Assembly: GCA_913030825.1 (NCBI GenBank)
Contig: CAJWCU010000015.1
Coordinates: forward strand, 1 to 64,000
Direction: 5' to 3'
DNA: 64,000 bases
Origin: an uncultured Rhodospirillaceae bacterium
GTDB lineage: Bacteria; Pseudomonadota; Alphaproteobacteria; Rhodospirillales; Casp-alpha2
Positions within the stretch are counted from its first letter, which is position 1. Every line of letters begins with the position of its first letter. The notes under the pieces are model-generated. The model was given only the letters and a program-made list of their open reading frames with translations. It did no database searches and was not told the origin of the DNA. Position numbers and translations under genes: made by a program. Shown piece by piece: positions 7,324 through 55,375 of the stretch.

Positions 7324-7343
7324 CAATTCTGAAAACAGAATTG
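7324..7343. repeat. Inverted repeat with 8-base arms upstream of acyl-CoA dehydrogenase
   Basis: CAATTCTG (7324-7331), AAAA spacer, CAGAATTG (7336-7343). The arms are perfectly complementary and the right arm overlaps the left half of the neighbouring GTATAC operator. It could be a second operator or a weak stem; no function can be assigned. Confidence 0.6.
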
Positions 7344-7351
7344 TATACAAT
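7340..7351. promoter_or_regulatory. ATTGTATACAAT operator (site 1, perfect palindrome)
   Basis: Perfect 12-bp palindrome ending 8 bases before the ATG at 7360. It is the best of five related sites in this window and has the form expected of GntR-family (FCD subgroup) operators. Its right half contains TACAAT (7346-7351), a five-of-six match to a -10 hexamer, which would place transcription start at or next to the start codon. Confidence 0.7.
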
Positions 7352-7359
7352 CCGCCATC

Positions 7360-8517
7360 ATGAATTTCGAACTCACCGAAGAACAGCGTCTGTTTCAGGA
7401 CGCGGTACGCGCCTTTGCCCGGGACAACCTGGCCGAAGGGGCGCTTGAACGTGCCCATCAGGGGGAATATCCCCGTGATGTGGCCAAGCTCATGGCCGAA
7501 AACGGCCTGTTGGGCATCACCATCCCGGAAGAGGACGGCGGCCAGGGCGGCAGCCTGATGGACGCGGTCATCGCGATCCAGGAAGTCGCCATGCATTGCC
7601 CGCGTTCCGCCGACGTGATCCAGGCCGGAAGCTTCGGCGCGATCCGCGTGCTGGCGGCCTACGGCACGCCGGATCAGAAGGAACGGTATTTGAAGCCGCT
7701 GCTGGCCGGTGAAAGCCTGATCGCCGTCGGCATGACGGAGCCGGACGCCGGATCGGCGGTGACGGATCTGCGCACCACCGCGACGCCGGACGGCGATGGC
7801 TTGCGGATCAACGGTCAGAAATGCTTCACCAGCCATTCGCCGGAAGCCGACGTATTTTTGGTCTACGTGCGCTACGGCCCGGGCGTGGACGGCATCGGAT
7901 CGGTCCTGATCCCGCGCGACGCGGAAGGCTTGGAATTCGGGCAGGCGACGCCGTTCTTGGGCGGCGACGACTGGGCGCCGCTGTTCTTCACCGACCTTTA
8001 CGTGCCGCCGGAAAACATCCTGCTGCGCGAAGGCGGCTTCAAGAAACAGATCGCCGGATTCAATGTGGAACGCATCGGCAATACGGCGCGGTCCATCGCA
8101 CTCGGCCGTCTGGCCTTCGAGACGGCCCGCGAACATGCTCTGACCCGCAAGCAGTTCGACCGCCCCTTGGCCGAATTCCAGGGCCTGCAATGGAAGTTCG
8201 CGGAAATGCAGATGAAGCTCGACGCCGGGCAGCTGCTGCTCTACCGCGCCGCCGTGAATGCCGACAACGGCTTTCCGTCGGCCCAGGAAACGGCCATCGC
8301 CAAGGCGTTCTGTAACGAAGCCGGGCATTGGATTTCGTCGGAAGCCCTGCAGGTCATGGGCGGCACCGGCTACAGCCAGGAAACGCTGGTCGAATATTGC
8401 TTCCGCCGCACGCGCGGCTGGATGATCGCCGGCGGTTCCATTGAAATCCTCAAGAACCGGATCGCCGAGGGCGTGTTCGACAAGCGTTTCTCGCAACGTC
8501 CGCCCAGAGCGAAATAA
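7360..8517 (+). CDS. Acyl-CoA dehydrogenase family flavoprotein
   Basis: 385-residue acyl-CoA dehydrogenase with the usual N-terminal helical, central beta (MTEPDAGSAVTDL, residues ~127-139) and C-terminal helical domains; oxidises an acyl-CoA to the enoyl-CoA with FAD. The C-terminal motif reads IAGGSIEI where many family members have YEGTxxI, so G358 sits where the medium-chain enzyme has its catalytic Glu; the base must come from elsewhere, as in isovaleryl- or long-chain types. No Shine-Dalgarno sequence precedes the ATG, and a -10-like hexamer lies at leaderless distance. It is followed 33 bases later by an acyl-CoA synthetase, its likely functional partner. Confidence 0.93.
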   Translation: MNFELTEEQRLFQDAVRAFARDNLAEGALERAHQGEYPRDVAKLMAENGLLGITIPEEDGGQGGSLMDAVIAIQEVAMHCPRSADVIQAGSFGAIRVLAAYGTPDQKERYLKPLLAGESLIAVGMTEPDAGSAVTDLRTTATPDGDGLRINGQKCFTSHSPEADVFLVYVRYGPGVDGIGSVLIPRDAEGLEFGQATPFLGGDDWAPLFFTDLYVPPENILLREGGFKKQIAGFNVERIGNTARSIALGRLAFETAREHALTRKQFDRPLAEFQGLQWKFAEMQMKLDAGQLLLYRAAVNADNGFPSAQETAIAKAFCNEAGHWISSEALQVMGGTGYSQETLVEYCFRRTRGWMIAGGSIEILKNRIAEGVFDKRFSQRPPRAK

Positions 8518-8550
8518 GAAGACAAGAAGACCCGAGTAAAGGACCGAACC

Positions 8551-10647
8551 ATGCCCGATACCAATGACCGGACGGCCACCCCGGCGAGCCTCGCCGACGC
8601 CCTGTTCACGCCGCGCGGCGTCGCCCTGATCGGCGCGTCCGGCGACCCGACGAAGAATTCCGGGCGCCCGCAGCGGTTCCTAAAAGCGCACGGGTTCACG
8701 GGCGAGGTCTATCCCATCAATCCCGGCCGTGACGAGGTCCAGGGGGTCAAGGCATATAAGAGCGTCGCAGACGTGCCGGGCCCGGTCGATCACGCCTTCG
8801 TCATGGTTCCGGCCAAATTCGTCGAGGACGCGATCCGCGACTGCGGGGCCAAGGGCGTGCGGGTCGCGACGATCTATTCCGACGGCTTCGCCGAAACCGG
8901 CGACGACGGCCGCAAGATGCAGGAACGCCTGGTCGCTACGGCGCGCGAGGTTGGCGTGCGTCTGATCGGCCCGAATTCCATGGGCGTCATTCATCCGGCT
9001 TCCAGCCTGACGTTGTCGGTCAACGCCGTCCTGGAAATGGAAGGCATCAAGCCGGGCGGTCTGTCGCTGATTTCCCAAAGCGGCACGATCCTGGGCACGC
9101 TGTTGTCGCGTGGTGCGGCGCGGGGCATCGGGTTTGCCCGCATGATCGGCGTCGGCAACGAAAGCGATCTGGCGGTCGGCGAGTTGGTCGATCTGCTGGT
9201 CGACGACCCGGCGACCAAGTCGATCCTGTTGTTCCTGGAAGCCGTGCGCGATGCGGACAAGCTGGCCGCCGCCGCGCGCCGCGCCTACGACGCAGGCAAG
9301 CCGGTCATTACCTATAAGCTAGGCCGGTCGGAAGCGGGCCGGGAATTGGCGCTCAGCCACTCCGGCGCCATCGCCGGCCCGGCCAAGGCCGCCGACGCCT
9401 TCTTCCAGGCCCATGCCATCGCCCGCGTCGAAATGCTGGAAGGTTTGCTGGAAGCGCCGCCCTTGTTCATGGGCCATCCGCCGCCCAAGGGTAAACGCGT
9501 CGCCGTGGTCACCACCACGGGCGGCGGGGCGGCTTCCGTCGCCGACCGCTTAGGAGCCTTGGGTGCCACACTGGCCCCGGCGCCGGAAGCGGTGCGCACG
9601 GCACTGCGAGAGCACGGACTGGAAATCGGTCGTGGGCCGCTGGTCGACTTGACCATGGCCGGCACGCGGGAAGGGGTCTACGGCGCGGCACTGGAACACC
9701 TTTTGGCCGACGACGGCATCGACGCCGTCGTGACGGTTGTCGGCTCGTCCGGGCAGTTCAAACCCGAGTTGGCCGTGGCGCCCATCGTCGAAAAGGCCGC
9801 TGGGTCGGACAAACCTGTCGCCGCCTTCATCGCCCCCCAGGCGGACAAGTCGCTTGCGTTGTTGCAGGAGGCGGGCATCGCCAACTTCCGCACGCCCGAA
9901 GCCTGCGCCGACGCCGTCATGGCGTTTCTCAATCGCCAGGCGCCGCGCCCCGTTCCCGCCGTGGACGATCACGCCAAGGAAAAGGCCGAGGCGATCCTGT
10001 CCCGGGCCCCCGCCGCCAACTTGAACGAACGCGAAGCCTCGCTGGTGTTCGAGGCCCTGGGCCTGCCCATCGCCCCGGCCCAGGTCATCAAGGGGGCGGG
10101 CGAGCCCGTCGCCGTGCCGTTCCCCGTGGCGGTCAAGGTCCTGGCGCGCGACATCCAGCACAAGACCGAACGCGGCCTGGTGCGCCTAGGCATCGACAGC
10201 CCTGAAGAGCTCTGGCAGGCCGCCGAGGAATTGCTGGCGCTCGCCCCCGAGGCCGAAGGCATCCTGGTTCAGTCCATGGCCCAGGGCGTGATGGGCGAGC
10301 TGATCGCCGGCTACCGCCTGGACGCCGAAGCCGGGCCCATCGTCCTGGTCGGGCCGGGCGGTATTCTGGCCGAGGTCTATGACGACGCGGCCGTGCGCAC
10401 GGCGCCCATCGACGCCGCCGAAGCCATGGAAATGATCGAAGAGGTCAAGGGTCTGGCGCCGATCCGGGGGTTCCGTGGCAAGCCGCCGGGCGATCTGAAG
10501 GCATTGGCCGAGGCATTGGCGGCGTTGTCGACGCTGGCGGTTCTCGACGCCTCCGTGCTGGAGGCCGAAATCAATCCGCTGATGGTGCGCGAAGACGGCG
10601 CGGGTGTCGTCGCCGTCGATGCCTTGCTGAGGCTCAAATCCAGCTAA
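8551..10647 (+). CDS. ADP-forming acyl-CoA synthetase (CoA-binding/ATP-grasp fusion)
   Basis: 698-residue single-chain NDP-forming acyl-CoA synthetase of the AcdA-AcdB fused type. Order: CoA-binding Rossmann domain (~15-130, GVALIGASGDPTK), succinyl-CoA-ligase-like domain (~150-290) with the SHSGA segment around H270 that carries the phospho-histidine in this family, a second ligase domain (~315-450) and an ATP-grasp domain (~470-695) ending NPLMVREDGAGVVAVDALL. It interconverts an organic acid, CoA and ATP with acyl-CoA, ADP and phosphate. It follows an acyl-CoA dehydrogenase in the same direction with an AAAGGA site before the ATG at 8551, so it probably activates the acid that the dehydrogenase then oxidises. 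Confidence 0.88.
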   Translation: MPDTNDRTATPASLADALFTPRGVALIGASGDPTKNSGRPQRFLKAHGFTGEVYPINPGRDEVQGVKAYKSVADVPGPVDHAFVMVPAKFVEDAIRDCGAKGVRVATIYSDGFAETGDDGRKMQERLVATAREVGVRLIGPNSMGVIHPASSLTLSVNAVLEMEGIKPGGLSLISQSGTILGTLLSRGAARGIGFARMIGVGNESDLAVGELVDLLVDDPATKSILLFLEAVRDADKLAAAARRAYDAGKPVITYKLGRSEAGRELALSHSGAIAGPAKAADAFFQAHAIARVEMLEGLLEAPPLFMGHPPPKGKRVAVVTTTGGGAASVADRLGALGATLAPAPEAVRTALREHGLEIGRGPLVDLTMAGTREGVYGAALEHLLADDGIDAVVTVVGSSGQFKPELAVAPIVEKAAGSDKPVAAFIAPQADKSLALLQEAGIANFRTPEACADAVMAFLNRQAPRPVPAVDDHAKEKAEAILSRAPAANLNEREASLVFEALGLPIAPAQVIKGAGEPVAVPFPVAVKVLARDIQHKTERGLVRLGIDSPEELWQAAEELLALAPEAEGILVQSMAQGVMGELIAGYRLDAEAGPIVLVGPGGILAEVYDDAAVRTAPIDAAEAMEMIEEVKGLAPIRGFRGKPPGDLKALAEALAALSTLAVLDASVLEAEINPLMVREDGAGVVAVDALLRLKSS

Positions 10648-16634: not shown

Positions 16635-16931
16635 TCAGATATGGACGGTGGTCATTTGGATTTGGCGATCTTCGATTAAGTCGGCGCCGGCGTCGCGGAA
16701 CTTGATGTAGTGGGGTTCCTCCCGGTGCGAATCCAACGCGGCTTCGTTGGTATAGACCTCATAGAAGAAGAAGGTGTCCGGATCGTCCTTCGCGGTCATG
16801 ACGCGGAATTCGTGGCAGTTGGGTTCATCCCGGCGGGCCGCGACGGCGTTCTCCATGATGATCGGCATGAAGTCCTTCCCTTTGCCGGGCTTGCATTTGA
16901 TGGTGACGATGATGGCGAATTTTCCGGCCAT
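16635..16931 (-). CDS. Antibiotic biosynthesis monooxygenase (ABM)-family protein
   Basis: 98-residue ferredoxin-like-fold dimer protein of the ABM/quinol monooxygenase family ([49 protein letters not shown]). Small members oxidise quinols or act as stress-related monooxygenases without cofactor; others have no demonstrated activity. The start at 16931 is fixed by GGAGGAA just upstream (minus strand); the frame continues to 17027 but would cross the operator region. Divergent from the RraA-type gene, with a GTATAC-type operator (site 2) between them, and followed by a strong terminator. Confidence 0.82.
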
Positions 16932-16986: not shown

Positions 16987-16998
16987 ATTGTGTACAAT
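16987..16998. promoter_or_regulatory. ATTGTGTACAAT operator (site 2)
   Basis: Eleven of twelve bases match the ATTGTATACAAT palindrome; the arms ATTGT/ACAAT are intact. It lies between the divergent ABM gene (55 bases upstream of its ATG) and the RraA-type gene (78 bases upstream), so one bound regulator could control both directions. Confidence 0.65.
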
Positions 16999-17076: not shown

Positions 17077-17565
17077 ATGAGCGACAAGCCGTTGCTGACG
17101 GCGGACCTATGCGACGACCATCCGGACGTTCGCGTCTGTCAAATGACTTTCACCGATTTCGCCAAACGCACCCACTTCCACGGCCAGATCACGACCTTTT
17201 CCACGTTCGAGGACAACAAAGGTATCCGCGAAATCCTTGCCGAAGGCGGCAAGGGTCGGGTTCTGGTCGTCGATGGCCGGGGCTCGCGCCGCCGCGCTTT
17301 GACAGGCGGCAACATCGCCGCCGAGGCCGAACAGTATGGCTGGGAAGGTCTGGTCTATAACGGTTGCATCCGCGACCAGCACGAATTCACCGACCTAGAC
17401 CTTGGCGTCAAGGCGATGGCTGCGACGCCCATGCGCCCGCGCACGGACGGCATTGGCCTGAAGGACGTGGATGTGAATTTCGGGGGGATCGTGATCCGCC
17501 CCGGTGAATGGCTCTATGCCGACCTGGACGGCGTTATCGTATCGGAGAAGAAACTTCATGACTGA
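17077..17565 (+). CDS. RraA-family protein, probable 2-oxoacid aldolase
   Basis: 162-residue protein with the length and order of E. coli RraA (FEDNKGIREIL, GRVLVVDGRGSRRRALTGGNIA, VNFGGIVIRPGEWLYADLDGVIVSE). Unlike E. coli RraA, which as I recall has AVRQ, this protein has R99-D100 in NGCIRD, the pair needed for metal binding and catalysis in 4-hydroxy-4-methyl-2-oxoglutarate/oxaloacetate aldolases of the same family. I therefore favour an aldolase or decarboxylase over an RNase E regulator. A GGAGGA site precedes the ATG. Its last 8 bases overlap the next gene, implying translational coupling with the hydroxy-acid dehydrogenase. Confidence 0.8.
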   Translation: MSDKPLLTADLCDDHPDVRVCQMTFTDFAKRTHFHGQITTFSTFEDNKGIREILAEGGKGRVLVVDGRGSRRRALTGGNIAAEAEQYGWEGLVYNGCIRDQHEFTDLDLGVKAMAATPMRPRTDGIGLKDVDVNFGGIVIRPGEWLYADLDGVIVSEKKLHD

Positions 17566-18667
17566 CAAACAACAAGACCTGCCCGCGGAGATCATTGAGA
17601 AGTTCCAGGTCCTGCATGAATTCGCCAAGGCGGCGAAGAACAACCTGAATAAGAACATCTACGACTATGTCTTCGGCGGCGCCGAAACCGAAACCACGGT
17701 CAGGCGCAACCGCATGGCCATCGAAACCCATGCCCTGCGTCCGCGCGTCATGCGCGACGTTTCGAAAATGAACGCCGGGGTCGACCGTTTCGGCATGCGG
17801 CTCAAGCTGCCGGTCTGCCTGGCGCCGATCGGATCGCTTCAGCAGATTTCGTCCGGCGGCGGTGCCGCGGCGGCCTCGGGCGCCGGTCGCTTCGGCTGTG
17901 CCCATATGCTGTCGAGCGTCTGCGAGCCCGGCATGGATGCCGTGGCCGAGGCCGCGCCGGACGCCTGCCGTATCTTCCAGCTTTACGTGCGCGGCGACGA
18001 GGACTGGGTCGACGACAAGGTCCGCCAGGCCCAGGACCTGGGCTACAAGGCCTTTGCCGTGACTATCGATCTGGACGCCTATTCGCGGCGTGAACGGGAT
18101 ATCTCGAAGCGCTTCGTCACCGCCGGCCGGCAGGCCGCCGTGGGCGAGACCCATCAGGCCCGATTCGACTGGTCCGATGTCGATCGGATCAAGAAGATCT
18201 GCAAGATCCCCTTCATCCTGAAGGGCATCGCGACGGCCGAGGATTCCAAGCTGGCCGTCGAGCACGGCGTTGATGTGGTCTATGTCTCGAATCATGGCGG
18301 GCGGCAGCTCGACCATGGCCGCGGCGGGCTCGACGTGCTGCCGGAATGCGTGGAGGCTGTGAACGGTCAGGCGCAGGTCTGGATCGACGGCGGCTTCATG
18401 CGCGGCACGGACATCGTCAAGGCGATGGCATTGGGCGCCGACATGGTCGGTCTGGGTCGTCTGCAGGCGCTGGCGCTGGCCGCCGGCGGCGAGGACGCCC
18501 TGGTGCGTATGCTGGAGATCCTGGAGCATGAGGTGCAGATCGCCCTCATGCTACTGGGCGTCACCGGCTATGACGAACTGGGCCCCGAGTATGTTTATAA
18601 GGAGCCCTTGGCGGTTGCGGACCCGCACCAGTTCTCGGGCTTCCCGCTGCTCGGCGAGGGGTACTGA
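17558..18667 (+). CDS. FMN-dependent alpha-hydroxy-acid dehydrogenase/oxidase
   Basis: 369-residue TIM-barrel flavoprotein of the lactate/glycolate oxidase family. Family motifs are the N-terminal YDYVFGGAETETTVRRNR, LPVCLAPIGSLQ, FQLYVRGDEDW, the FMN/active-site segment LKGIATAEDSKLA and the catalytic-histidine motif YVSNHGGRQLDHG. It oxidises an L-2-hydroxy acid to the 2-oxo acid, passing electrons to oxygen or the quinone pool. The ATG at 17558 overlaps the stop of the RraA-type gene, so the two proteins are made together; the aldolase and oxidase could act on consecutive hydroxy-oxo acid intermediates. A bidirectional terminator follows. Confidence 0.9.
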   Translation: MTDKQQDLPAEIIEKFQVLHEFAKAAKNNLNKNIYDYVFGGAETETTVRRNRMAIETHALRPRVMRDVSKMNAGVDRFGMRLKLPVCLAPIGSLQQISSGGGAAAASGAGRFGCAHMLSSVCEPGMDAVAEAAPDACRIFQLYVRGDEDWVDDKVRQAQDLGYKAFAVTIDLDAYSRRERDISKRFVTAGRQAAVGETHQARFDWSDVDRIKKICKIPFILKGIATAEDSKLAVEHGVDVVYVSNHGGRQLDHGRGGLDVLPECVEAVNGQAQVWIDGGFMRGTDIVKAMALGADMVGLGRLQALALAAGGEDALVRMLEILEHEVQIALMLLGVTGYDELGPEYVYKEPLAVADPHQFSGFPLLGEGY

Positions 18668-18778: not shown

Positions 18779-19660
18779 CTAGATCTTCGGCTCGTTGCCT
18801 TCCTCGATGTATTTGTAGACCAACGAGATGTCCGAGCCGGGCCGGTCTTTTTCGGCGCCTTCGAAGATCTGGGTCACCAGGTTGCCGATGGAGTTCGGCG
18901 TGCCGGCCTTCGTTGAGTTTTCGAAGAACAGGCGCACGTCCTTGGCCAACAGCTTGTTGGTAAAGCCGGCGTCCCAGGTGCCGGACATGATGCGGTTGGG
19001 CAGCTTGTCCAGGGTCGCCGTGTTCATGCCGGTCGAGACGTTGACCACGTCCAGGATCGCCTGTGCCTCAAGGCCCTGGGACAGGCCGAACAGCATGGCT
19101 TCGGACGAGGCGGCGAGAGCGGTCGCCGACAGGAAGTTGTTGAGCATCTTGACGACCTGGCCCTGGCCCGGTTCCTCGCCGACGTGGAACGGATTCTTGG
19201 CGAATGCCTTGAAGACTTCCAAGTGATCGTCATAGACCGCCTTCGGCCCGCCGACCATCACGGCGATGGTGGCGTTGATGGCGCCGCGGCGGCCGCCTGA
19301 GACGGGTGCATCCATATAGGTGATCTTGGCGTCCTTCAGGATGCCGTCGATTTCCTGGGCCGCCGCCGTGCCGATGGTCGACAGGTCGATGACGACCGAG
19401 GTCTTGCGGTCGTTGACCTGGACGATTTCCTTGGCGACGGCAGTGCAGATCGGGCCGTCGGGCAGGGACAGGAAAACCGTATCCGCATTGGCCAACACGC
19501 CGGCCAGCGAATCATGGGCGATGGCCTTTTCATGGGCGCGTTCTTTGGTGCCGGCGGCGTCATAGACGTGGACCGGCAGACCAGCCTTGGCGATGTTTTC
19601 GGCCATCGGGCCGCCCATTGCGCCGAGGCCGATGAAACCGTAGGTGCGTTGTTCAGCCAT
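18779..19660 (-). CDS. 3-hydroxyisobutyrate-dehydrogenase-family NAD(P)-dependent oxidoreductase
   Basis: 293-residue beta-hydroxyacid dehydrogenase with an N-terminal dinucleotide motif GFIGLGAMGGPMAENIAKAG, the substrate-binding block DAPVSGGRRGA and the catalytic lysine block VVKMLNNFLSATALAASSEA. Relatives oxidise 3-hydroxyisobutyrate, tartronate semialdehyde or gamma-hydroxybutyrate; specificity is not obvious. Its ATG at 19660 lies three bases after the stop of the CMD-family gene, with the GGAGG site inside that gene's last codons, so the two are coupled. It lies in the leftward arm of a module that has an operator in front of each arm. Confidence 0.9.
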   Translation of the reverse strand: MAEQRTYGFIGLGAMGGPMAENIAKAGLPVHVYDAAGTKERAHEKAIAHDSLAGVLANADTVFLSLPDGPICTAVAKEIVQVNDRKTSVVIDLSTIGTAAAQEIDGILKDAKITYMDAPVSGGRRGAINATIAVMVGGPKAVYDDHLEVFKAFAKNPFHVGEEPGQGQVVKMLNNFLSATALAASSEAMLFGLSQGLEAQAILDVVNVSTGMNTATLDKLPNRIMSGTWDAGFTNKLLAKDVRLFFENSTKAGTPNSIGNLVTQIFEGAEKDRPGSDISLVYKYIEEGNEPKI

Positions 19661-19663
19661 GGG

Positions 19664-20086
19664 TCAATCCTCCAGATCGTGTTTGACGTCGATCGTGGAG
19701 ATATCGATGCCTTCTTCGTTGAACACTTCGCGGGCCAGGCGGAAGGCTTCGATGCCCGCGGGAATGCCGCAGTAGATGGCGACCTGGGTGCAGATTTCGC
19801 GCAGGTCCGCGACGGTCAGGCCATTGTTGATGGCGCCGCGGAAATGCAGGCGGAATTCGTGCGGCCGGTTGAGCGCGGCCAGCATGCCTAGGTTGAGAAT
19901 CGAACGGTCGCGCTTGGACAGGATTCCTCGGCCCCAGCTGCCGCCCCAGCAATACTCAGTCACGAATTCCTGGAAGCCGCGATTGAAATCGTCGGCGCCG
20001 CCCATGGATTTATCGACATAGGCATCGCCCAGCACTTCGCGCCGGTATTTCATCCCCATGTCGTGCATTTTAGTCGAGTTCGTCAT
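19664..20086 (-). CDS. Carboxymuconolactone decarboxylase (CMD)-family protein
   Basis: 140-residue helical CMD/AhpD-fold protein (FNRGFQEFVTEYCWGGSWGR, LGMLAALNRPHEFRLHFRGAINNGL, EICTQVAIYCGIPAGIEAFRLA). The decarboxylase group usually acts on 4-carboxymuconolactone in the protocatechuate 3,4-pathway, but many catabolic clusters carry a CMD protein of unknown role. The CxxC of AhpD-type peroxidases is absent. The start at 20086 follows AGGGAGAA; in-frame sequence up to 20122 is less likely. A GTATAC-type operator (site 3) is 37 bases upstream. Confidence 0.87.
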   Translation of the reverse strand: MTNSTKMHDMGMKYRREVLGDAYVDKSMGGADDFNRGFQEFVTEYCWGGSWGRGILSKRDRSILNLGMLAALNRPHEFRLHFRGAINNGLTVADLREICTQVAIYCGIPAGIEAFRLAREVFNEEGIDISTIDVKHDLED

Positions 20087-20122: not shown

Positions 20123-20134
20123 TTTGTATACATT
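20123..20134. promoter_or_regulatory. TTTGTATACATT operator (site 3)
   Basis: The core TTGTATACA is intact and ten of twelve bases match ATTGTATACAAT. It lies 37 bases upstream of the CMD-family start codon on the leftward arm of the 16.6-20.1 kb module. Confidence 0.6.
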
Positions 20135-34627: not shown

Positions 34628-34651
34628 TCGTTCTGTTTGCAAGTAAGAGAT

Positions 34652-34677: not shown

Positions 34678-34684
34678 CTTTCAT

Positions 34685-34999: not shown

Positions 35000-35049
35000 A
35001 CAATATGAGAATCGTTGGAAAATTTTTTTTATGGATCAGTGAAAGCGAC

Positions 35050-35352: not shown

Positions 35353-35356
35353 GGTG

Positions 35357-38208: not shown

Positions 38209-38274
38209 TGGCTCTGGCGTTTTTTATGTCGCGCCTGCCGCGCGGCGAAACATCAAATTACCGGAGTTCGAAAA

Positions 38275-38580
38275 TTGGAATACACAATCAATGAAGCGGG
38301 TGATGCCCACGAAGTTATGATGCAGGGAACCTTCGGGTTCGCCGACAACGTGAGCGTGGAGCAATTGGTCGAATCCCTCGTCGACAAACGCGCTGGGTCC
38401 GTTGTTTTGAACCTGAGCAGTGTCGAAAAAATCGATTCCGCGGGTCTTGGCATGATTGTCCTGATCAAGGATGAGATCGAAGACAGTGGCGGCAAGTTCG
38501 CTGTCCGCGGTGCCTCGGGCCAGGTCAAAAAGATGTTAGACATTTCGCGGTTCGATCAGTTGATGAACGTCGAGGGCTGA
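38275..38580 (+). CDS. STAS-domain anti-anti-sigma-type protein
   Basis: 101-residue single STAS domain (SpoIIAA/RsbV type). The phosphorylatable serine is S55 in EKIDSAGLGMIVLIKDE. In partner switching the unphosphorylated STAS protein binds an ATPase partner; phosphorylation releases it. The start is a TTG at 38275 with CCGGAG upstream. A 5-bp hairpin followed by six T (38201-38225) lies between the chemoreceptor and this gene and might reduce readthrough. The neighbouring fusion protein contains both a kinase-like ATPase and a PP2C phosphatase, the expected enzymes for adding and removing the phosphate. Confidence 0.88.
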   Translation: MEYTINEAGDAHEVMMQGTFGFADNVSVEQLVESLVDKRAGSVVLNLSSVEKIDSAGLGMIVLIKDEIEDSGGKFAVRGASGQVKKMLDISRFDQLMNVEG

Positions 38581-38605
38581 TCGCCCTCGACGCGGATTTT
38601 CCGGC

Positions 38606-40528: not shown

Positions 40529-40617
40529 AGCGTTCGCCGTGGTGGCAATTGTGCCTCCAATGGGGGAGATGATCGATATATAATTCAACCATATGACACA
40601 CGAAGGGATTTACCGAG

Positions 40618-41205
40618 GTGCGGATAAAGGAACGGTCGGGGCCGTCAGGCGCGAAGGAACGGATCGATCAGGATGTTCGCCGTGCGCGCACGGAAGGCCC
40701 GTTGCAGGCGCCGGTCTGCGTTGACGCCTGCCCGGATTACGACCTTCGGGCCGGCTGCCGCCGGGATTGCGCCAAGGCACCCGCCCGGTTGTCCAGCGAC
40801 CCGGATCGTTTTCCCGTCGAGGAAAAGATCGCCCCTCTGGTCTTCGAGTTGAAGAAGCTCGGCGTGTTCTTTCCCTGTTGGTCGTGCGAGGGGCACAACG
40901 ATCCCTCCGGCAAATTATGGAAACTGCCGCGCGTCTGGTTTTACGCCGATTCCGTGGTTCATCTGCGCCTGCTCTCCGATGCGATCAACGAAATGTCGGT
41001 GCGCGGGGTGTTGTCGACCCGTTGGCAGGTGACCGTGACGTTCTCAGACGACGCCAACGCGGATACCACTTTCAGCCTGGAACCCGGCGCCGACGCCCAT
41101 GGTGTCGGTCTCGAACGCCTGCAATCGGATATCGCAACGATCAGTGCCGGCCTGGAGGCGGAGTTCAACCGAGCCTGCGAGAAATTGAGCCCGGGCGGCG
41201 GTTGA
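40618..41205 (+). CDS. Cysteine-containing protein of unknown function
   Basis: 195-residue hydrophilic protein from a GTG at 40618 (site ACCGAGG). An N-terminal cysteine cluster CVDACPDYDLRAGCRRDC (residues ~34-51) and a second pair in FPCWSCEGHND (~85-95) could bind metal. The rest looks alpha/beta, with LPRVWFYADSVVHLRLL and TRWQVTVTFSD. No signal peptide. I do not recognise the family. It ends 4 bases before the next gene, so the two form an operon, and that gene resembles an oxygenase. Possibly a conserved alphaproteobacterial pair. Confidence 0.6.
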   Translation: MRIKERSGPSGAKERIDQDVRRARTEGPLQAPVCVDACPDYDLRAGCRRDCAKAPARLSSDPDRFPVEEKIAPLVFELKKLGVFFPCWSCEGHNDPSGKLWKLPRVWFYADSVVHLRLLSDAINEMSVRGVLSTRWQVTVTFSDDANADTTFSLEPGADAHGVGLERLQSDIATISAGLEAEFNRACEKLSPGGG

Positions 41206-41209
41206 GCCC

Positions 41210-41932
41210 ATGGGGTGTCTGGAACCCGATGTCATCAAGCGGCTGATCGCCCGACCCGACGAACCCGTGCGGGGCAGATCCGCGGGACAGGGCTTCACGG
41301 CGACCGTCCTGATCCCCGATATCGCTCAGGCCGCCCGTGGGTACTATGCCGATGTGCCGGGCCTGGAAAAAGAACTGGCGGAGATGCCGTTCCGGACGTT
41401 CGGGCTCGCGGTGCGCTTCGATGCGCCGCATCGGTTGGAAGCCTTCGGCGAGGACCTATGTCTGGCCTCGGATTATCGGCGTGCCGTGGACCAGTTCGGC
41501 GTCTGTACCTTTTCCAACGTCTCCTTGCCCGTACCGCCGGACAAGGAATTTCAGAAGAACATCTTTCCCGATCTCAAGTTCCACACGGACCGGGGCGCGT
41601 TGTTCGAAAATCAGGTGTCCTTATTCTATCGAAACCCGGCGGACCCGGATCATCGCCCACCTCGGCGGACTTCGACGTTGATCATTCCGAACGCCGTCTT
41701 CTTCCTGCAGGCAGAACGGGAAGGGCAGCGCGATGCGGCCGGGGCACGGAACCTCGTGTTGTTCCAACCGGAAACGGCGGCGGCGGCGCTCGGCAAGGTG
41801 ATGGTCCGGATGGCCTGGGACGGGCCCCCGGGGACGGGCGAAGTCTGCCTGTTCGACAACCGGACGGTCGTACATGCCAGTCATCACAACGGTGAGCGCC
41901 ATTATCCGATTGCCGTGCAATACCTGACTTAG
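41210..41932 (+). CDS. Putative 2-oxoglutarate/Fe(II) oxygenase-like protein
   Basis: 240-residue cytoplasmic protein. An H-x-D motif in LKFHTDRG (~residues 122-129) and a distal His in DNRTVVHASHHNGERHYPIAVQYL near the C-terminus, with an Arg in the right place to bind 2-oxoglutarate, suggest a double-stranded beta-helix dioxygenase. The rest does not match a subfamily I know, so the call is tentative. It follows the Cys-rich protein with a 4-base gap, suggesting joint function. Confidence 0.5.
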   Translation: MGCLEPDVIKRLIARPDEPVRGRSAGQGFTATVLIPDIAQAARGYYADVPGLEKELAEMPFRTFGLAVRFDAPHRLEAFGEDLCLASDYRRAVDQFGVCTFSNVSLPVPPDKEFQKNIFPDLKFHTDRGALFENQVSLFYRNPADPDHRPPRRTSTLIIPNAVFFLQAEREGQRDAAGARNLVLFQPETAAAALGKVMVRMAWDGPPGTGEVCLFDNRTVVHASHHNGERHYPIAVQYLT

Positions 41933-42205
41933 AGACACCTGACTTAGCGACGGGTGTTGTCCGCCGCCCTCAAGCAATGGTCTGAATTCCGTACCAAAAA
42001 TATTGGCAATCGCCGGATGGTCTGACTACGTCATGGGTCAAGCGCGATATGTCGGGGCGCGTCCCCGATCGATGCGGGGGCAATGTTCATACCCCGCCAG
42101 GCCGCTGATCTTTCCGGATTACATTGGCCTGCCGCCGTCCGAGCCGCCCTGCCTGACAGGGCAACGGCTGCGGCGCGCGCTGTTCATAGAGCAAGGAGAT
42201 TCCCC

Positions 42206-42388
42206 ATGCTGAGATGGGCCGTAACCTTTTTGATTATTGCAATGATTGCCGCGGTGTTCGGCTTCGGCGGCATTGCCGCCACGGCGGTCGATATCGCGCA
42301 GCTTCTATTCTTCGTCTTCATCGTGCTGTTCGCGCTCGCCCTGATCGCACACTTGATCAAGGGCCGGGGCGCGCCACCGGCGCCGTGA
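42206..42388 (+). CDS. DUF1328-like small membrane protein
   Basis: 60-residue protein made of two hydrophobic helices ([22 protein letters not shown] and [21 protein letters not shown]) with a short basic tail, matching the DUF1328/YtjA pattern. Proteins of this type are small inner-membrane proteins often linked to stress responses; function unknown. AAGGAGA precedes the ATG. A terminator follows. The 273 bases upstream (41933-42205) hold no supported gene. Confidence 0.85.
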
Positions 42389-42414
42389 CGGCGTTTGCCG
42401 ACAACCCAAAATGC

Positions 42415-42442
42415 GAAACGGCCCCTGCTGAGGGGCCGTTTC
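42415..42442. terminator. Intrinsic terminator, probably bidirectional
   Basis: Perfect twelve-base stem GAAACGGCCCCT (42415-42426) / AGGGGCCGTTTC (42431-42442), GCTG loop, followed by TTCG on the plus strand and AAACCC-type sequence on the other. It separates the DUF1328-like gene from the convergent PrpB-like gene. Confidence 0.85.
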
Positions 42443-42478
42443 TTCGTTTGATGCCTTGATCGGCTTACTTGCGCCGGC

Positions 42479-43390
42479 TTACTTGCCGTATTCGGGCAGT
42501 ACCGTACGGGCGACCGACTGGTCGAGCGCTTCGTAATCGTAATAGGCCAGGGTGTCGTACTGTTCGCCGCGCGACATCACTTTGTCCATGAAGCCTTCGG
42601 TGCCGTCATGTTCCTTCATATGGCCGTAGAGGTCCTGGAACAGTTTGGCGGCGGCGCGCATGGAAGTCGCCGGCCAGATCACGATGTCGAAGCCCATGTC
42701 CTCGAACTCCTGGCCGGTGAAGAAGGGCGTGCGGCCATATTCGGTCATGTTGGCCATCTTCAGGCCCGGGACCTTCTTGGCGTATTCCACATGGTCCTCG
42801 GCCGACGGCAGGCCGTCGGGGAAGGACACGTCGGCGCCGGCTTCACGGTACAGGTTGGACCGCTTGATGGCGGCGTCCAGGCCTTCGACGCCGGCGGCGT
42901 CCGTACGCGCGATGATGACCAGATCGGACGACGCCTTCTTGGCGGCGGCGATCTTGGTCGCCGCTTCTTCCGGATCGACCAGGCGCTTGTCGTTCAAGTG
43001 GCCGCATTTCTTGGGCAGCATCTGATCCTCGATATGGATCGCGCCGGCGCCGGCCAATTCCATTTCCTGCACCACGCGCATGGCGTTCAGGGTGCCGCCG
43101 TAGCCGGTGTCGCCGTCGACGATCAAGGGCAGGTCCGTGGTCCGCGACACGCTTCGCACGACGCCGCACATTTCATCCAGCGTCATGATGCCCAGGTCCG
43201 GCAGGCCCAAGGAGGCCGTTACCGCGCCGCCCGAGATATAAAGCGCGTCGAACCCGGCTTGTTTGGCGATCATGCCCGCGAAGGCGTTATGCGCCCCCGG
43301 CACGCGGAGAATTTCCTTGCGGTCCAAAAGTTCGCGCAGTCGTGCGCCGGCGGGGCGTTTGTCGCGGGCGTTGCCTTCAAGCCAAGTCAT
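42479..43390 (-). CDS. Isocitrate lyase/PEP mutase family lyase, methylisocitrate lyase (PrpB)-like
   Basis: 303-residue TIM-barrel lyase with the catalytic loop KKCGHLNDK, the metal-binding VDGDTGYGG and the partner block HIEDQMLPKKCGH. The Cys in KKCGH is the general acid/base of isocitrate and 2-methylisocitrate lyases and separates them from PEP mutase. Such enzymes split 2-methylisocitrate to pyruvate and succinate, or other 2-hydroxy diacids such as 2,3-dimethylmalate. No prpC is nearby, so the substrate is open. GGAGGACTCCC precedes the ATG at 43390. Operator site 4 lies 47 bases upstream. Confidence 0.87.
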   Translation of the reverse strand: MTWLEGNARDKRPAGARLRELLDRKEILRVPGAHNAFAGMIAKQAGFDALYISGGAVTASLGLPDLGIMTLDEMCGVVRSVSRTTDLPLIVDGDTGYGGTLNAMRVVQEMELAGAGAIHIEDQMLPKKCGHLNDKRLVDPEEAATKIAAAKKASSDLVIIARTDAAGVEGLDAAIKRSNLYREAGADVSFPDGLPSAEDHVEYAKKVPGLKMANMTEYGRTPFFTGQEFEDMGFDIVIWPATSMRAAAKLFQDLYGHMKEHDGTEGFMDKVMSRGEQYDTLAYYDYEALDQSVARTVLPEYGK

Positions 43391-43437: not shown

Positions 43438-43449
43438 ACTGTATACAAT
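43438..43449. promoter_or_regulatory. ACTGTATACAAT operator (site 4)
   Basis: Eleven of twelve bases match ATTGTATACAAT. It sits between the divergent PrpB-like lyase (47 bases from its ATG) and the DOPA-dioxygenase-like gene (66-96 bases from its candidate starts), so both may be controlled. Confidence 0.65.
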
Positions 43450-43545
43450 TTCATGCCAAATGCCGCACCCGTTTAATTCGATCGGCGTTGCAAAAACCGC
43501 GGCGGTTTGCCATCTATGAAGGACATCCTTTTCCGAAAGTCGCCC

Positions 43546-43926
43546 ATGACGGACCACGGTCCAACGTCCATTTCCGAATTCCACGCCCACATCTATTTCG
43601 AGGGCGCGACGGCGCGCGACCATGCCTATGCTCTGCGCGCGGCCTTGCTGTCGGAGTTCGGTGGAACGCCGGGCGGCATTCGGGAAGAGCCGGGCGGCCC
43701 GCATCCGCTGCCCGATATCCTGGTGCATATTCCGGTCGACCGCTTCGCCAACGCGGTGCCGTATCTGATGCTGAACCGGGCGGGGTTGAGCATTCTGGTC
43801 CATCCCGAAACCGGATCGCCCGTGGCCGACCATACGGAAAACGCCCTTTGGCTGGGCGCACCCTTGGCGATCGATGTCGAATTTCTGAAAGCGTTCGAGA
43901 AACGCGCGGCGCAACGGACCGCGTGA
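43546..43926 (+). CDS. DOPA 4,5-dioxygenase family protein
   Basis: 126-residue (from ATG 43546; an in-frame ATG at 43516 is also possible) member of the small DOPA 4,5-dioxygenase-like family. Conserved His-containing blocks are EFHAHIYFEG, GGPHPLPDILVHIP and LSILVHPETGSPVADHTENALWLG. Relatives open catechol rings at the extradiol position in plants, fungi and bacteria; many bacterial ones are uncharacterised. It is divergent from the PrpB-like lyase across operator site 4 and 31 bases before the TauD-like oxygenase, likely one transcript. Confidence 0.8.
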   Translation: MTDHGPTSISEFHAHIYFEGATARDHAYALRAALLSEFGGTPGGIREEPGGPHPLPDILVHIPVDRFANAVPYLMLNRAGLSILVHPETGSPVADHTENALWLGAPLAIDVEFLKAFEKRAAQRTA

Positions 43927-43957: not shown

Positions 43958-44992
43958 ATGATCGAATATCCCCTGACCCCCGTAACCGAAAAATCCGCCT
44001 GGACCGCCGCCGACATGGCCGCCGACCGTAGTTGGACCCGCCATCTTTCCGGCGACGAGATCGGCGAACTTGAGCGGGTCGCCCGCGAGCTTCTGGATGC
44101 CGGAAAGCGGGCGCCGAACTTCGGTCTTGCCGACGTTCAATCGGCGACGCTCAAATCCCTGGCCGATTGGATCGCCAACGAACTGGAACACGGCCGCGGT
44201 TGTGCGGTGCTTCGCGGGCTGGAGGTCGACCGCTACGCACGGGACGAGATCGAAGCCATGTACTGGGCGCTGACGTTGCTGTTCGCCGTGCCCATGCATC
44301 AGAACCCGGACGGCGACTTGATTGGCGAGGTCACGGACAAGGGGCTCGATTACAACGATCCGCTGATCCGAGGCTACAAGACGAAACAGAAACTGTTCTT
44401 CCACTGCGACGGGATGGATCTGGTCAGCCTGCTTTGTCTGCAGCCGTCCATGTCGGGCGGCGAAAGCCAGATCGCGTCGAGCATGGCCGTATATAACGAA
44501 ATCCTCGCCACTCATCCCGAATACCTGCCGCCGCTGTTGGAAGGTTTTCATTTCAACCTGCGCGGCGAAGGCGAAGCGGGAGAGACCCATCCGGTAACCC
44601 GTCACAAGGTGCCGGTCTATAGCTGGTGCGACGGACGGCTCAGCTGCCGCTATCTGCGCAAGGCCATCGTCGAAGGGCAGCAATTCGTGGGCGAGCCGGT
44701 TTCCGATTTGGCCCTGGCGGCGCTCGACTACATGCAGGAGCTTTGCGTCAGCGACAAATTCCGCTTCGACATGGACTTCCAGCCGGGCGACATTCAGATC
44801 CTCAACAACTACGTGACCTTACATTCGCGGGGGGCGTTCGAGGATTGGCCGGAACCCGATCGTAAGCGCAACCTGCTGCGGATCTGGATGAACATGCGGG
44901 AAGGCGCCCGCCAACTCGATCCGCAGTTCGCGGACCACTACAACATGGGCCCGCGCACGCCGATGCGTCTGCGCGACGACCGCGCCGCCTGA
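43958..44992 (+). CDS. TauD/TfdA-family 2-oxoglutarate-dependent dioxygenase
   Basis: 344-residue Fe(II)/2-oxoglutarate oxygenase of the TauD fold. The triad is seen as H-x-D in KLFFHCDGMDLVS and the distal His in NNYVTLHSRGAFEDW; the 2-oxoglutarate-binding Arg is in KRNLLRIWMNM. It is longer than TauD (~280) and matches the subgroup annotated as TauD/TfdA-like or gamma-butyrobetaine-like. Substrate unknown. It sits directly behind the DOPA-dioxygenase-like gene and may act on an aromatic or carboxylate substrate of the same route. Confidence 0.87.
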   Translation: MIEYPLTPVTEKSAWTAADMAADRSWTRHLSGDEIGELERVARELLDAGKRAPNFGLADVQSATLKSLADWIANELEHGRGCAVLRGLEVDRYARDEIEAMYWALTLLFAVPMHQNPDGDLIGEVTDKGLDYNDPLIRGYKTKQKLFFHCDGMDLVSLLCLQPSMSGGESQIASSMAVYNEILATHPEYLPPLLEGFHFNLRGEGEAGETHPVTRHKVPVYSWCDGRLSCRYLRKAIVEGQQFVGEPVSDLALAALDYMQELCVSDKFRFDMDFQPGDIQILNNYVTLHSRGAFEDWPEPDRKRNLLRIWMNMREGARQLDPQFADHYNMGPRTPMRLRDDRAA

Positions 44993-45036: not shown

Positions 45037-45975
45037 TTAGCCCTCGACGGCCTTGCGCCGTTTGGTCGGGATCGGCGACGCCTTGGTCGCGCGGTTCCGG
45101 CCGGCATGCTTGGAATGATAGAGCGCCGCATCGGCGCGGCCCAGCGTGCCTTCGATGGTGTTGTCCGCGTCTTCCGCTTCGGCGACGCCAATCGAAACGG
45201 TGACGTCGATTTCGCCGTCGATGGTGTCGAACGGCGCGTCGTCGATCACCGCGCGCAGCCGTTCCGCCACGATCATCGCGGCATCGGCATCGGCGCCCGG
45301 CAATAGAATGGCGAATTCCTCGCCGCCGATACGGCCCAGGGTGTCGAACGGCCGGCGGCCTTTCTGCCAGCGTTGAACGGCTTCCTTCAGCACTTCGTCG
45401 CCGGCCTGGTGGCCATGCGTGTCGTTGACTTGTTTGAAATGGTCGAGGTCCAGCAGCGCCACGGAAAACGGCACCCGGTGACGGCGCAGGCGATGAACTT
45501 CCAGTTCGGCGCGTTCCATGAAGTGGCGGCGGTTCTTGGCGCCGGTCAGATCGTCGGTGGTGGCGAGAGAGAGTAATTCTTCTTCGCGTTCCACGTTTTC
45601 GGTGACGTCGCGCTGGATCGCGGCGATATGGGTCAACTTGCCGTCAGTGCCGAACAGCGGCATGACGTTCATATCCACCCAATAGGTTTCGCCGGTCTTG
45701 GTGTATTGCAGAAGGCGCGTACGGGTGTGGCGACCGGCCTTGATGGCGTCATTGATCTTGTCCCGGGTCTCGGCATCCGTCTCGGCGCCGTCCTGGAAAT
45801 TAGGCAATTTGCCGATCGCTTCCTTTTCCGAATAACCGGAAAGGCGACAGAAGGCTTCGTTGACGTAGCTGATTTTCGGCTTTGCGCCTGCTTGGTCCGA
45901 GATCGTGGCGACGAAAACGGCGTCGTTTGCCTTAGCGACGATGTCCGAAAAGGAAAAATCCGCGTCCAATTTCAT
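45037..45975 (-). CDS. Diguanylate cyclase with LOV-like PAS domain lacking the photoactive cysteine
   Basis: 312-residue protein: N-terminal PAS domain (~8-128) and GGDEF domain (~140-300) with active GGEEF at 217-221 and an RxxD inhibitory site (R208-D211) five residues before it, so it should make cyclic di-GMP under product inhibition. The PAS domain follows the LOV pattern throughout: YVNEAFCRLSGYSEKEAIG, then GKLPNFQDGAETD in place of GRNCRFLQGPETD, and the C-terminal IQRDVTE. The adduct Cys is Pro58, so classical LOV photochemistry is excluded; it may still bind flavin. The start is taken at ATG 45975; a GTG at 45996 is possible. Monocistronic. Confidence 0.88.
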   Translation of the reverse strand: MKLDADFSFSDIVAKANDAVFVATISDQAGAKPKISYVNEAFCRLSGYSEKEAIGKLPNFQDGAETDAETRDKINDAIKAGRHTRTRLLQYTKTGETYWVDMNVMPLFGTDGKLTHIAAIQRDVTENVEREEELLSLATTDDLTGAKNRRHFMERAELEVHRLRRHRVPFSVALLDLDHFKQVNDTHGHQAGDEVLKEAVQRWQKGRRPFDTLGRIGGEEFAILLPGADADAAMIVAERLRAVIDDAPFDTIDGEIDVTVSIGVAEAEDADNTIEGTLGRADAALYHSKHAGRNRATKASPIPTKRRKAVEG

Positions 45976-52614: not shown

Positions 52615-55281
52615 TCAGGCGGCGTTGGCGCCCCTGAATTTCTCCAGCACGTAGGGCATGACCCCGCCGTTTTCGAACCAGGCGACCTCGCGTGCCGTAT
52701 CCAGACGGCAGAGAACGTCGGTCTCGATCACCGTGCCGTCCGGTTTGGTGAAGCGGACCTGCGCCGTCTGACCTGGGGTGATCGTGCCGCCGAAACCCGT
52801 GATGTCCACGGTCTCCGTGCCGTCCAGGCCCAGCGTCTTGCGCGTCGTCCCCGCCGGGAACTGCAGCGGCATGATCCCCATGCCGATCAGGTTCGAGCGG
52901 TGGATGCGCTCCACGTCCTCGGCGATGATCGCGCGCACGCCCAACAGGTGCGGGCCGCGCGCGGCCCCGTCGCGCGACGATCCGATGCCGTATCCGGTCC
53001 CGGCGACGACGACCGCCGGGCGGCCTTCGGCGGCGTAGCGCCCAGCCGCGTCGAAGATCGTCGTTTCCTCGCCTGTCGGCTGATACCGGGTCCAGCCGCC
53101 CCGCCGGTCCGGCGTCATTTCGTTCTGGACGTAGGGGTTGTTGAAGGCGCCGCGCAGAATGATTTCATGATTGGCGCGGCGTTGCAGGAAACCGGAATAG
53201 TCGGCGGGTGCGACGCCCTGGGCGGACAGATGATCGCCCGCGAGACTGCCTTCCTGAATGCGGCTGCCGGGTGAGATGTGGTCGGTGGTGACGTTGTCGC
53301 CCAGCATCGCCAGGATCGCGGCCCCTTCGACGCCCGGGAACGGTACCTGTCGGCGGGCCGTTTCCAGATAGGGCGGCTTGACGATGTAGGTGCTGTCGTC
53401 GTCCCAGTCGAAGGCTCCGGCGTCGCCCGGGTCGATGTCGTCCCACATGGGGTTTGCGTCCTCCGGGCGGGAGAGACGATCCAGGTAAAGGCCCTGGGTG
53501 ATGTTATCGCGGATCGCGGCCTCCACGTCCTGGGCGCTGGGCCAGATATCGGCGAGGTAAACCGGATTGCCGTCGGCGTCATCGCCCAGCGGCGCGGTGG
53601 TGATGTCTTTCAGAACCGTGCCGAGGATCGCATAGGCGACGACCAGCGGCGGCGAGCCCAGGTAGTTGAGTTTGACCTGCGGATGGACGCGGCCTTCGAA
53701 ATTGCGGTTGCCCGACAGCACGGCGGCGACGCTCAGGTTGTCGGCCTTGATCGCCTGGGCGATGTCGTCGCGTAGGCCGCCCGACCCGCCGCAGCAAGTC
53801 ATGCAGCCGTAGCCCGCAATGTGGAATCCCAATTCTTCCAGCGGTTCGATCAGGCCCGCCCGGGTCAGGTAGTCGCCGACCGCGCGCGATCCCGGCGACA
53901 GCGAGGTCTTGATCCAGGGCTTGGCCGTAAGACCCTTCGCCCGCGCGTTCTTCGCCAACAGACCGGCGGCGATCATGACACTGGGGTTCGAGGTATTGGT
54001 GCAAGAGGTAATCGCCGCGATGGCGAGGTCACCATCGTGAATCGGGCCGTCTGCCGGCTCGGCGGCGGGATCGCCGCCGTTTTCCCGGATCGCCGCTTCG
54101 GCGGATTGCGGCGCGGTGCTGAGGGGCACCCGGCTTTGCGGCAGTTTCGGCCCGGCAAGACAGGCTTCGACCTGGTCCAGGTCGAATTCGATGACGTCGG
54201 AATAGACGACCTCGGCCCTATCGTCGCGCCACATGCCTTGGGCCTTGGCATAGGCTTCGACCAAGGGCACCTGATCGCCGCGCCCGGTCAATTCCAGATA
54301 GGCGAGGGCTTTCTCGTCGATGGGGAAGAAGGCGACGCTGGCGCCGTATTCCGGCGCCATGTTCGAAAGCGTCGCCCGTTCCGGCAGGCTGAGGATGTCG
54401 AGGGCAGGGCCCGTGAATTCGACGAACTTCTGCACCACGCCGTAGTCGCGGAGCGCCTTGGTCAGGGACAGCACCAGATCGGTCGTCGTCGTGCCTTCGC
54501 GCATTCGGCCGGTAAGGCGCACGCCGACGACGTCGGGGATCAGCATGCTGACCGGCTCGCCCAGGGTCGCGGACAGGGCCTCGATCGCGCCGACGCCCCA
54601 GCCGAGAACGGCCAACGCGTTGATCATCGGGGTATGGCTGTCGCAGGCGAGCAGACTGTCGGGGAAGGCGACCGGCCCCAATTCGGGGTCGTCTTCCGAC
54701 CAGACGACGCGGGCCAGGCGTTCCAAGTTGATCTGATGGCAGATGCCTTGGCCCGGCGGCAGGACGCGCAGATTGCGGAAGGCCTTCTGCGCCCATTTGG
54801 CGACCCGGTAGCGTTCGGCGTTCTGTTCGAATTCGGCCGCCATGTTGCGGGTCAGGGCATCGGCCTGTCCGGCGACGTTGACGATCACCGAATGGTCGGT
54901 GACGTAATCCAGTGGCCGCACCGGATTGACCAGCGAAGGATCCTTGCCCATGGCCTGCATGTGTTCGCGCATGGCGGCCAAATCCGTCAGCAACGGGATG
55001 CCCGAAACGTCATGCACCATGATGCGGGTGGGGAAGAAGCTGATCTCCGCCGGGTTGCCCGCGTTGTCGACCCAGGTCTTGAAGGCTTCTGCGGTTTCCG
55101 TCGTCACCGTCTCGCCGTCTTCGTGGCGCAGGACGTTTTCCAACAGCACCTTCAGGCAATAGGGCAGGCGGGATGTGCCGGAAAGGCCGGCGGCCTCGGC
55201 CTGAGGCAGGCTGAAATAGGTGTAATCGGTGCCGTTCGCGGAAAGGGCCGCGCGCGCATTGAAGCTGTTGGGATGCGTCAT
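52615..55281 (-). CDS. Aconitase-family hydratase (AcnA/AcnD-like, divergent)
   Basis: 888-residue monomeric aconitase with [4Fe-4S] ligands C427 (SCTNTSNP), C493 and C496 (GYGCMTCCGG), NMAPEYGASVAFFPID, and swivel-domain block GSSRDGAARGPHLLGVRAIIAE. The standard AcnA reads GCTTCIGNSG and GSSRDWAAKG here, so substrate-proximal loops differ and the substrate may be 2-methylcitrate or another tricarboxylate. The start is MTHPNSFN at 55281 after an AGGACGAGG region; the frame to 55374 overlaps the operator. Operator site 5 is 83 bases upstream, grouping it with catabolic genes. Iron-sulfur, cytoplasmic. Confidence 0.9.
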   Translation of the reverse strand: MTHPNSFNARAALSANGTDYTYFSLPQAEAAGLSGTSRLPYCLKVLLENVLRHEDGETVTTETAEAFKTWVDNAGNPAEISFFPTRIMVHDVSGIPLLTDLAAMREHMQAMGKDPSLVNPVRPLDYVTDHSVIVNVAGQADALTRNMAAEFEQNAERYRVAKWAQKAFRNLRVLPPGQGICHQINLERLARVVWSEDDPELGPVAFPDSLLACDSHTPMINALAVLGWGVGAIEALSATLGEPVSMLIPDVVGVRLTGRMREGTTTTDLVLSLTKALRDYGVVQKFVEFTGPALDILSLPERATLSNMAPEYGASVAFFPIDEKALAYLELTGRGDQVPLVEAYAKAQGMWRDDRAEVVYSDVIEFDLDQVEACLAGPKLPQSRVPLSTAPQSAEAAIRENGGDPAAEPADGPIHDGDLAIAAITSCTNTSNPSVMIAAGLLAKNARAKGLTAKPWIKTSLSPGSRAVGDYLTRAGLIEPLEELGFHIAGYGCMTCCGGSGGLRDDIAQAIKADNLSVAAVLSGNRNFEGRVHPQVKLNYLGSPPLVVAYAILGTVLKDITTAPLGDDADGNPVYLADIWPSAQDVEAAIRDNITQGLYLDRLSRPEDANPMWDDIDPGDAGAFDWDDDSTYIVKPPYLETARRQVPFPGVEGAAILAMLGDNVTTDHISPGSRIQEGSLAGDHLSAQGVAPADYSGFLQRRANHEIILRGAFNNPYVQNEMTPDRRGGWTRYQPTGEETTIFDAAGRYAAEGRPAVVVAGTGYGIGSSRDGAARGPHLLGVRAIIAEDVERIHRSNLIGMGIMPLQFPAGTTRKTLGLDGTETVDITGFGGTITPGQTAQVRFTKPDGTVIETDVLCRLDTAREVAWFENGGVMPYVLEKFRGANAA

Positions 55282-55363
55282 GGATGCCTCGTCCTGGGAT
55301 GTTTCCGGCGTCGTTCGGGCGCGCCGTTCGGGGGGTGTTTCGGTCACTCTGAGGCAAAACGGC

Positions 55364-55375
55364 TTTGTATACAAT
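55364..55375. promoter_or_regulatory. TTTGTATACAAT operator (site 5)
   Basis: Eleven of twelve bases match ATTGTATACAAT and the inner TTGTATACAA palindrome is perfect. It lies 83 bases upstream of the aconitase start codon and 20 bases from the end of the LysR gene, so it most likely controls the aconitase. Confidence 0.7.

Follow-up and report, generated by a model that had tools for sequence, protein, structure and literature searches.

A dispersed palindrome and its predicted FCD-type regulator in the genome of an uncultured alphaproteobacterium

An FCD regulator, a palindromic operator, autoregulation and regulon expansion are each of an already known kind. Atu1419 of Agrobacterium fabrum, from the VanR group of FCD/GntR proteins (PDB 6z74), binds ATGTATACAT and has three reported target genes, all in one hydroxycinnamate pathway (PMC7797058). 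Several FadR-subfamily groups have operators with a two-base spacing between the GT and AC boxes, and the same source also tells of divergent operons that share one site in the interval (PMC4494728). GntR-family regulons average 4.4-7.6 genes per genome in the table consulted (PMC5343134). The palindromes analysed below resemble the PMC4494728 systems in operator architecture, and share TGTATACA with the Atu1419 operator. They stand out by the size of the predicted regulon, about 30 promoters against the three target genes given for Atu1419 and 49 first genes at 30 sites against the tabulated family averages, and by a graded series among related genera. A search of the open-licence literature, judged from listings and titles, found no description of such a regulon and none pairing TTGTATACAA with a GntR protein.

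The window is the whole 64-kb stretch of DNA analysed; its genome (G000) comprises 3.99 Mb in 68 contigs. It holds five matches to ATTGTATACAAT with at most two mismatches (0, 1, 2, 1 and 1), at the positions and with the match counts reported by the first-pass annotation. The palindromes and the genes around them are as follows, with distances to start codons taken from our own gene finder.

5111-6160, LacI regulator gene (Pfam)
7340-7351, no strand, palindrome ATTGTATACAAT (12/12), operator-like, 8 bases 5' of the acyl-CoA dehydrogenase start
7360-8517, plus strand, acyl-CoA dehydrogenase (Pfam)
8551-10647, plus strand, acyl-CoA synthetase-like gene with CoA-binding and ATP-grasp domains (Pfam)
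16635-16931, minus strand, ABM (antibiotic biosynthesis monooxygenase-like; Pfam PF03992)
16987-16998, no strand, palindrome ATTGTGTACAAT (11/12), amid the divergent ABM and RraA genes, 55 and 78 bases from their starts
17077-17565, plus strand, RraA-like aldolase (Pfam)
17558-18667, plus strand, FMN-dependent dehydrogenase (Pfam)
18779-19660, minus strand, 3-hydroxyisobutyrate dehydrogenase-like gene (Pfam)
19664-20086, minus strand, CMD-family gene (Pfam)
20123-20134, no strand, palindrome TTTGTATACATT (10/12), 36 bases 5' of the CMD gene
42479-43390, minus strand, PrpB-like lyase of the PEP-mutase/ICL superfamily (Pfam; TIGR02317, prpB, over cut-off)
43438-43449, no strand, palindrome ACTGTATACAAT (11/12), amid the PrpB-like and DOPA-dioxygenase-like genes, 47 and 66 bases from their starts
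43516-43926, plus strand, DOPA-dioxygenase-like gene (Pfam)
43958-44992, plus strand, TauD/TfdA-family oxygenase (Pfam)
52615-55281, minus strand, accessory aconitase of AcnA type (Pfam, NCBIfam)
55364-55375, no strand, palindrome TTTGTATACAAT (11/12), 82 bases 5' of the accessory aconitase, behind the same-strand LysR gene
55396-56292, minus strand, LysR regulator gene, adjoining the 55364 palindrome

On the side opposite the CMD gene, the 20123 palindrome faces a gene for an ABC transporter ATPase, 213 bases away. The acyl-CoA dehydrogenase and acyl-CoA synthetase-like genes (7360-10647) likely form one operon. Pfam bears out the genes named at the five palindromes by the first-pass annotation (acyl-CoA dehydrogenase, ABM, RraA, CMD, PEP-mutase/ICL family, DOPA dioxygenase and aconitase); the aconitase, which it had called divergent, lies in tandem with the LysR gene, both on the minus strand. 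A PAS-GGDEF protein is encoded among the catabolic genes, at 45037-45975.

The palindromes are more numerous than base composition would predict. One hundred dinucleotide shuffles of the window gave a mean of 0.40 matches at up to two mismatches, with a maximum of 3 and never 5. Intergenic DNA, as delimited by our gene finder, amounts to 6,589 bases (10.3% of the window); it contains all five palindromes against 0.08 in first-order simulations (maximum 1 in 500), and ATTGTATACAAT ranks first there among 384 palindromes of equal G+C content, with four occurrences at up to one mismatch and one for the runner-up. Across G000, 55 matches were found at up to two mismatches, against 10 for the reversed-pattern control. 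At up to one mismatch there are 29 sites, 10 of them perfect, with no control match in either class, and all 29 are intergenic; the chance rate without promoter enrichment that the first-pass annotation named as telling against its motif is thus not what the genome displays. The eight genomes of the window's genus each have 19-31 sites at up to one mismatch, with 0-3 in the controls. Base counts over the 29 sites outline a symmetric 12-base core with G in 29/29, T in 28/29, A in 29/29 and C in 29/29 at a two-base spacing, which agrees with the operators of the FadR subfamily (palindromes rich in A and T whose GT and AC boxes stand 2-3 bases from each other). The flanks share no sequence, and a dispersed DNA repeat was rejected for this reason. 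With no control match against 29 sites, and with the same promoters carrying the site in another species, chance matches or a dispersed repeat have next to no probability as explanations.

Distances to genes were taken over 30 sites, namely the 29 and the 20123 palindrome, which form 49 site-gene pairs with start codons 8-292 bases away. One could suppose that the palindrome is a promoter element, or that it is read by the LacI or LysR protein of the window: its end, TACAAT, is close to a -10 hexamer, and the best predicted -10 coincides with the site end (offset +6) in 9 of the 49 pairs and falls inside the site (offset +4) in 4 more. Such a role is at odds with the two-fold symmetry and the conservation of both half-sites, as well as with the variable distance to the start codon, and the 29 positions lie mostly far from the LacI and LysR genes, so that we hold either version to be very improbable. 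The promoter overlap is weak evidence of repression. LacI and LysR genes are present in the window, as the first-pass annotation had it, and none of the 22 GntR matches in the genome lies on its contig.

The genes adjacent to the sites, classified by Pfam and NCBIfam, are varied. A TauD/TfdA oxygenase is the first gene at four sites, and PhyH also occurs. CoA-linked targets comprise two acyl-CoA dehydrogenases, two enoyl-CoA hydratases and two CoA-transferases III, accompanied by two class II aldolases, TPP enzymes at three sites and an L-arabinonate dehydratase (over cut-off). Further enzymes are MmgE/PrpD, two lyases of the PEP-mutase/ICL family, the accessory aconitase, RraA, CMD, ABM, molybdenum-hydroxylase subunits and an aldehyde ferredoxin oxidoreductase. 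Transport and signalling are represented by an NMT1-like solute receptor, MFS transporters, a membrane-fusion protein and two histidine kinases, and targets lacking an evident catabolic role include rhomboid, EipB-like, trypsin/PDZ and DinB/glutaredoxin genes. On the strength of this mixed list, drawn from 29-30 sites, we reject the proposal of a single pathway shared by the five enzymes. The broader proposal is supported, namely a regulon that is dispersed and for the most part catabolic. The tricarballylate genes tcuA and tcuB, each above its NCBIfam cut-off, stand behind a perfect site; the regulator proposed here for them is of the FCD type, whereas TcuR, the described tricarballylate regulator, is LysR-type.

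Ten of the proteins encoded in G000 match FCD. The candidate reader is one of them:

G000:C18:36404-37120, FCD-A, in a thioesterase/FCD-A/serine-hydrolase-like operon with its own site

FCD-A scores over cut-off for both domains of an FCD-type GntR protein (PF07729, 95.8 bits; PF00392, 66.7 bits) and below cut-off for all 19 named NCBIfam GntR families listed, PhnR, NanR, LldR, PdhR, CsiR and GlcC among them; its best score there is 127.4 bits for phnR_burk, against a cut-off of 271.5. It is only a distant homologue of Atu1419 (phmmer E 9.7e-19; sequence alignment over residues 17-208 with 6z74). The residues reported as DNA contacts in Atu1419 are matched at identical spacing in 24/24 aligned FCD-A sequences (E38, R49, T50 and R53), and occur in several paralogues as well. 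N134, H138, H182 and H204 are invariant in the same 24 sequences and align with 6z74; they fit the Asp/Asn-plus-three-His pattern of metal-binding FCD proteins and make up a predicted metal site. The suggestion that the regulator is unlinked to the window agrees with the position of FCD-A, on another contig in G000 and at 3.016 Mb in the single-contig genome G002 of the same genus, about 0.6 Mb from the region matching the window (2.373-2.425 Mb).

The operons of FCD-A-like genes carry the palindrome themselves. Sites with at most one mismatch are present at 26 of 30 such loci and sites with two mismatches at two more (G009 and G034), while none was found in the stretch examined at G073 and G074. 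All eight genomes of the window's genus have the operon site before the thioesterase gene, with one mismatch (11/12), and in genus g14 it is perfect in 9/9 carriers (12/12, 35-160 bases from the start). In G011, G012, G021, G025, G029 and G031 the site opens a unit of two genes, preceding the gene upstream of FCD-A. Operon heads re-examined at seven seemingly siteless loci revealed a site at five, perfect in G011 and G029, with one mismatch in G021 and G025 and with two in G034. The gene preceding FCD-A encodes an FAD-binding protein in G011, G012 and G031 and exceeds the TcuA cut-off in G011; in G031 the only perfect site of the genome separates MmgE/PrpD from the FAD-binding-protein/FCD-A unit. 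Among named records the closest homologue is L195, from an uncultured alphaproteobacterium (54% identity), and a perfect site lies one gene upstream of it too.

The distribution of perfect sites in the family follows that of FCD-A. Of 48 family genomes, 24 were scored as carriers under a threshold of 50% identity, chosen after a gap was seen between 53% and 42%. A perfect site is present in 23/24 carriers (120 sites) and 5/24 non-carriers (5 sites; Fisher 1e-7), and, leaving out the window's genus, in 15/16 and 5/24 (1e-5), both values ignoring kinship among genomes of one family, which are non-independent samples. The five non-carriers have one perfect site each, and one of these genomes, G047, is 74% complete; G017, whose 120-aa fragment is 51% identical to FCD-A, was scored as a non-carrier. 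Contrasts within genera g5 and g8 agree with the association, with the exception of G034, a carrier lacking a perfect site. Within g2 the contrast carries little weight, since G021 was scored as a carrier with a perfect site although that site fronts a different FCD gene. The number of perfect sites per carrier is 0-2 in g2, g5 and g8, where they usually lie at the TcuA-like/FCD-A unit, 1-5 in g14, 6 in g6 and 7-12 in the window's genus (19-31 with one mismatch included).

Our reading, to which we give a probability of about three in four, is that the five palindromes serve as operators within a single regulon of some 30 promoters bound by FCD-A, a VanR-like FCD/GntR protein. The first-pass annotation had read a GntR/FCD protein from the form of the palindrome. 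Such a reader is probable on the grounds of the co-occurrence and the own-operon sites; the motif alone does not name it, since other FCD genes use the palindrome. The motif was accordingly rejected as proof of FCD-A, and, being generic to FCD proteins, leaves the assignment to these two lines of evidence. Related sites occur upstream of three other FCD genes of G000: ATTGTATACCAC at FCD-B (C5), ATTGCATGCAAT at C12 and TTTTTATACAAT at C6. An FCD gene other than FCD-A is preceded by a perfect site in both G015 and G021, and the Firmicutes FCD genes L219, L247 and L256, 33-34% identical to FCD-A, carry ATTGTATACAAT without mismatch at a distance of 85-128 bases upstream of the match. The 300 bases upstream were searched at 80 FCD-A-homologous loci from the genome collection, and 10 contain a match with at most two mismatches, against 1/80 for the reversed control: 2/18 at 42% identity or more, 4/39 at 36-41% and 4/23 below. 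Within this 300-base span the motif could not be predicted from identity to FCD-A, but the span does not reach far enough for a gene located inside an operon (L195, with its site one gene upstream, scored none).

With ten FCD genes in G000, several paralogues might share the palindrome, each controlling part of the roughly 30 sites, in which case there would be no single regulon; the related sites at C5, C12 and C6 and the FCD genes beside perfect sites in G015 and G021 speak for this. Yet the 300 bases upstream of each of the other nine FCD genes contain none of the 29 sites, and the two paralogues tested, FCD-B and FCD-C32, do not track the sites: their presence (39/48 and 25/30 tested genomes) is unassociated with perfect sites, and both were rejected as readers. 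We therefore regard shared control as unlikely. Of nine G000 FCD proteins compared (of ten, C44 being left out), three have close relatives in both G002 and G012: FCD-A, FCD-B and FCD-C32. FCD-B (L023, G000:C5:157535-158260), kept in 39/48 family genomes at no less than 58% identity and preceded by ATTGTATACCAC in both G000 and G002, appears from these sequences to be another conserved FCD regulator. A different FCD gene, L096 (G002:C1:650322), has two upstream sites, ATTGTATGCAAT and ATTGCATACAAT, which together with ATTGCATGCAAT at G000:C12 may represent a sister operator variant, TTGYATRCAA.

The sites predicted to be bound by FCD-A are largely retained in G002. There, 29 of the 30 sites examined at up to one mismatch are intergenic, and for 23 of the 29 G000 sites (24/30 counting 20123) a relative of the target over 40% identical also has a site. 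Site identity in the 23 pairs is 97.8% against 60.8% in the flanks, a difference inflated by the choice of pairs with a site in both genomes. Gene order in the matching G002 region is collinear with that of the window, four of whose five sites are kept in place: 7340 (L306:8685, 12/12), 16987 (L305:18448), 20123 (L305:15328, the identical 12 bases) and 43438, by the PrpB-like gene (L305:310). The last has a counterpart in G012 (L152), whose CMD/ABC interval (L150) contains ATTGTGTACAAT; these are among the four of 20 examined G012 sites (of 24) that match a G000 target, genes being uncalled at several others. The PrpB-like gene is also adjacent to a site in G027, G036, G046 and G047, of another genus. 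Across three g14 genomes, where 20 of 25 sites were examined and three others are FCD-A's own, the targets common to all are MmgE/PrpD, a TcuA-like gene (34-36% identity), PrpB-like/TauD and a membrane-fusion protein; a sulfopyruvate-decarboxylase-like subunit is a target in one.

The fifth site of the window differs in history. The accessory aconitase is absent from the collinear place in G002 and, among eight genomes of the genus, is found only in G000 and in G007 (98% identical, with the same palindrome at L296:4247), so the palindrome was gained with or after that gene. An operator-like palindrome is therefore not confined to old residents of the genome but accompanies a gene that is new to its place as well. 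The accessory copy is 51% identical to a second G000 aconitase at C1:194026, presumably the housekeeping one, and equally to the single aconitase match of G002; neither has a palindrome in the stretch examined.

In the scheme we infer for binding, repression, ligand and direction of evolutionary change, an FCD-A dimer or tetramer would sit on TTGTATACAA 5' of start codons, near or over the promoter, and keep transcription blocked as long as no organic-acid ligand occupies its effector domain, with its invariant Asn and three His. The short start-codon distances and the single sites in divergent intervals would suit such a ligand-released repressor, as judged from the family. The core genes MmgE/PrpD, TcuA-like and PrpB-like suggest tricarboxylate-type acids as ancestral substrates and a tricarboxylate-like ligand, and FCD-A probably began as a local regulator of tricarballylate/2-methylcitrate-type genes (TcuA-like, MmgE/PrpD). 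In the window's genus the operator stands before many unrelated catabolic operons. The chances seem even that, in a single family, a local repressor of this type grew into a master regulator of catabolism for a whole genus, by stages that are still visible. The proposal offers a concrete regulator, operator and target list, would tie scattered catabolic operons to one signal, and makes growth from about one to about thirty promoters traceable in a series of related genomes.

The comparison with G002 also delimits a segment of about 8.7 kb, at 33790-42470 of the window, that has no counterpart in the collinear region. It includes genes with weak coding scores at 38606-40528 and 40618-41205, and is probably a strain-specific insertion.
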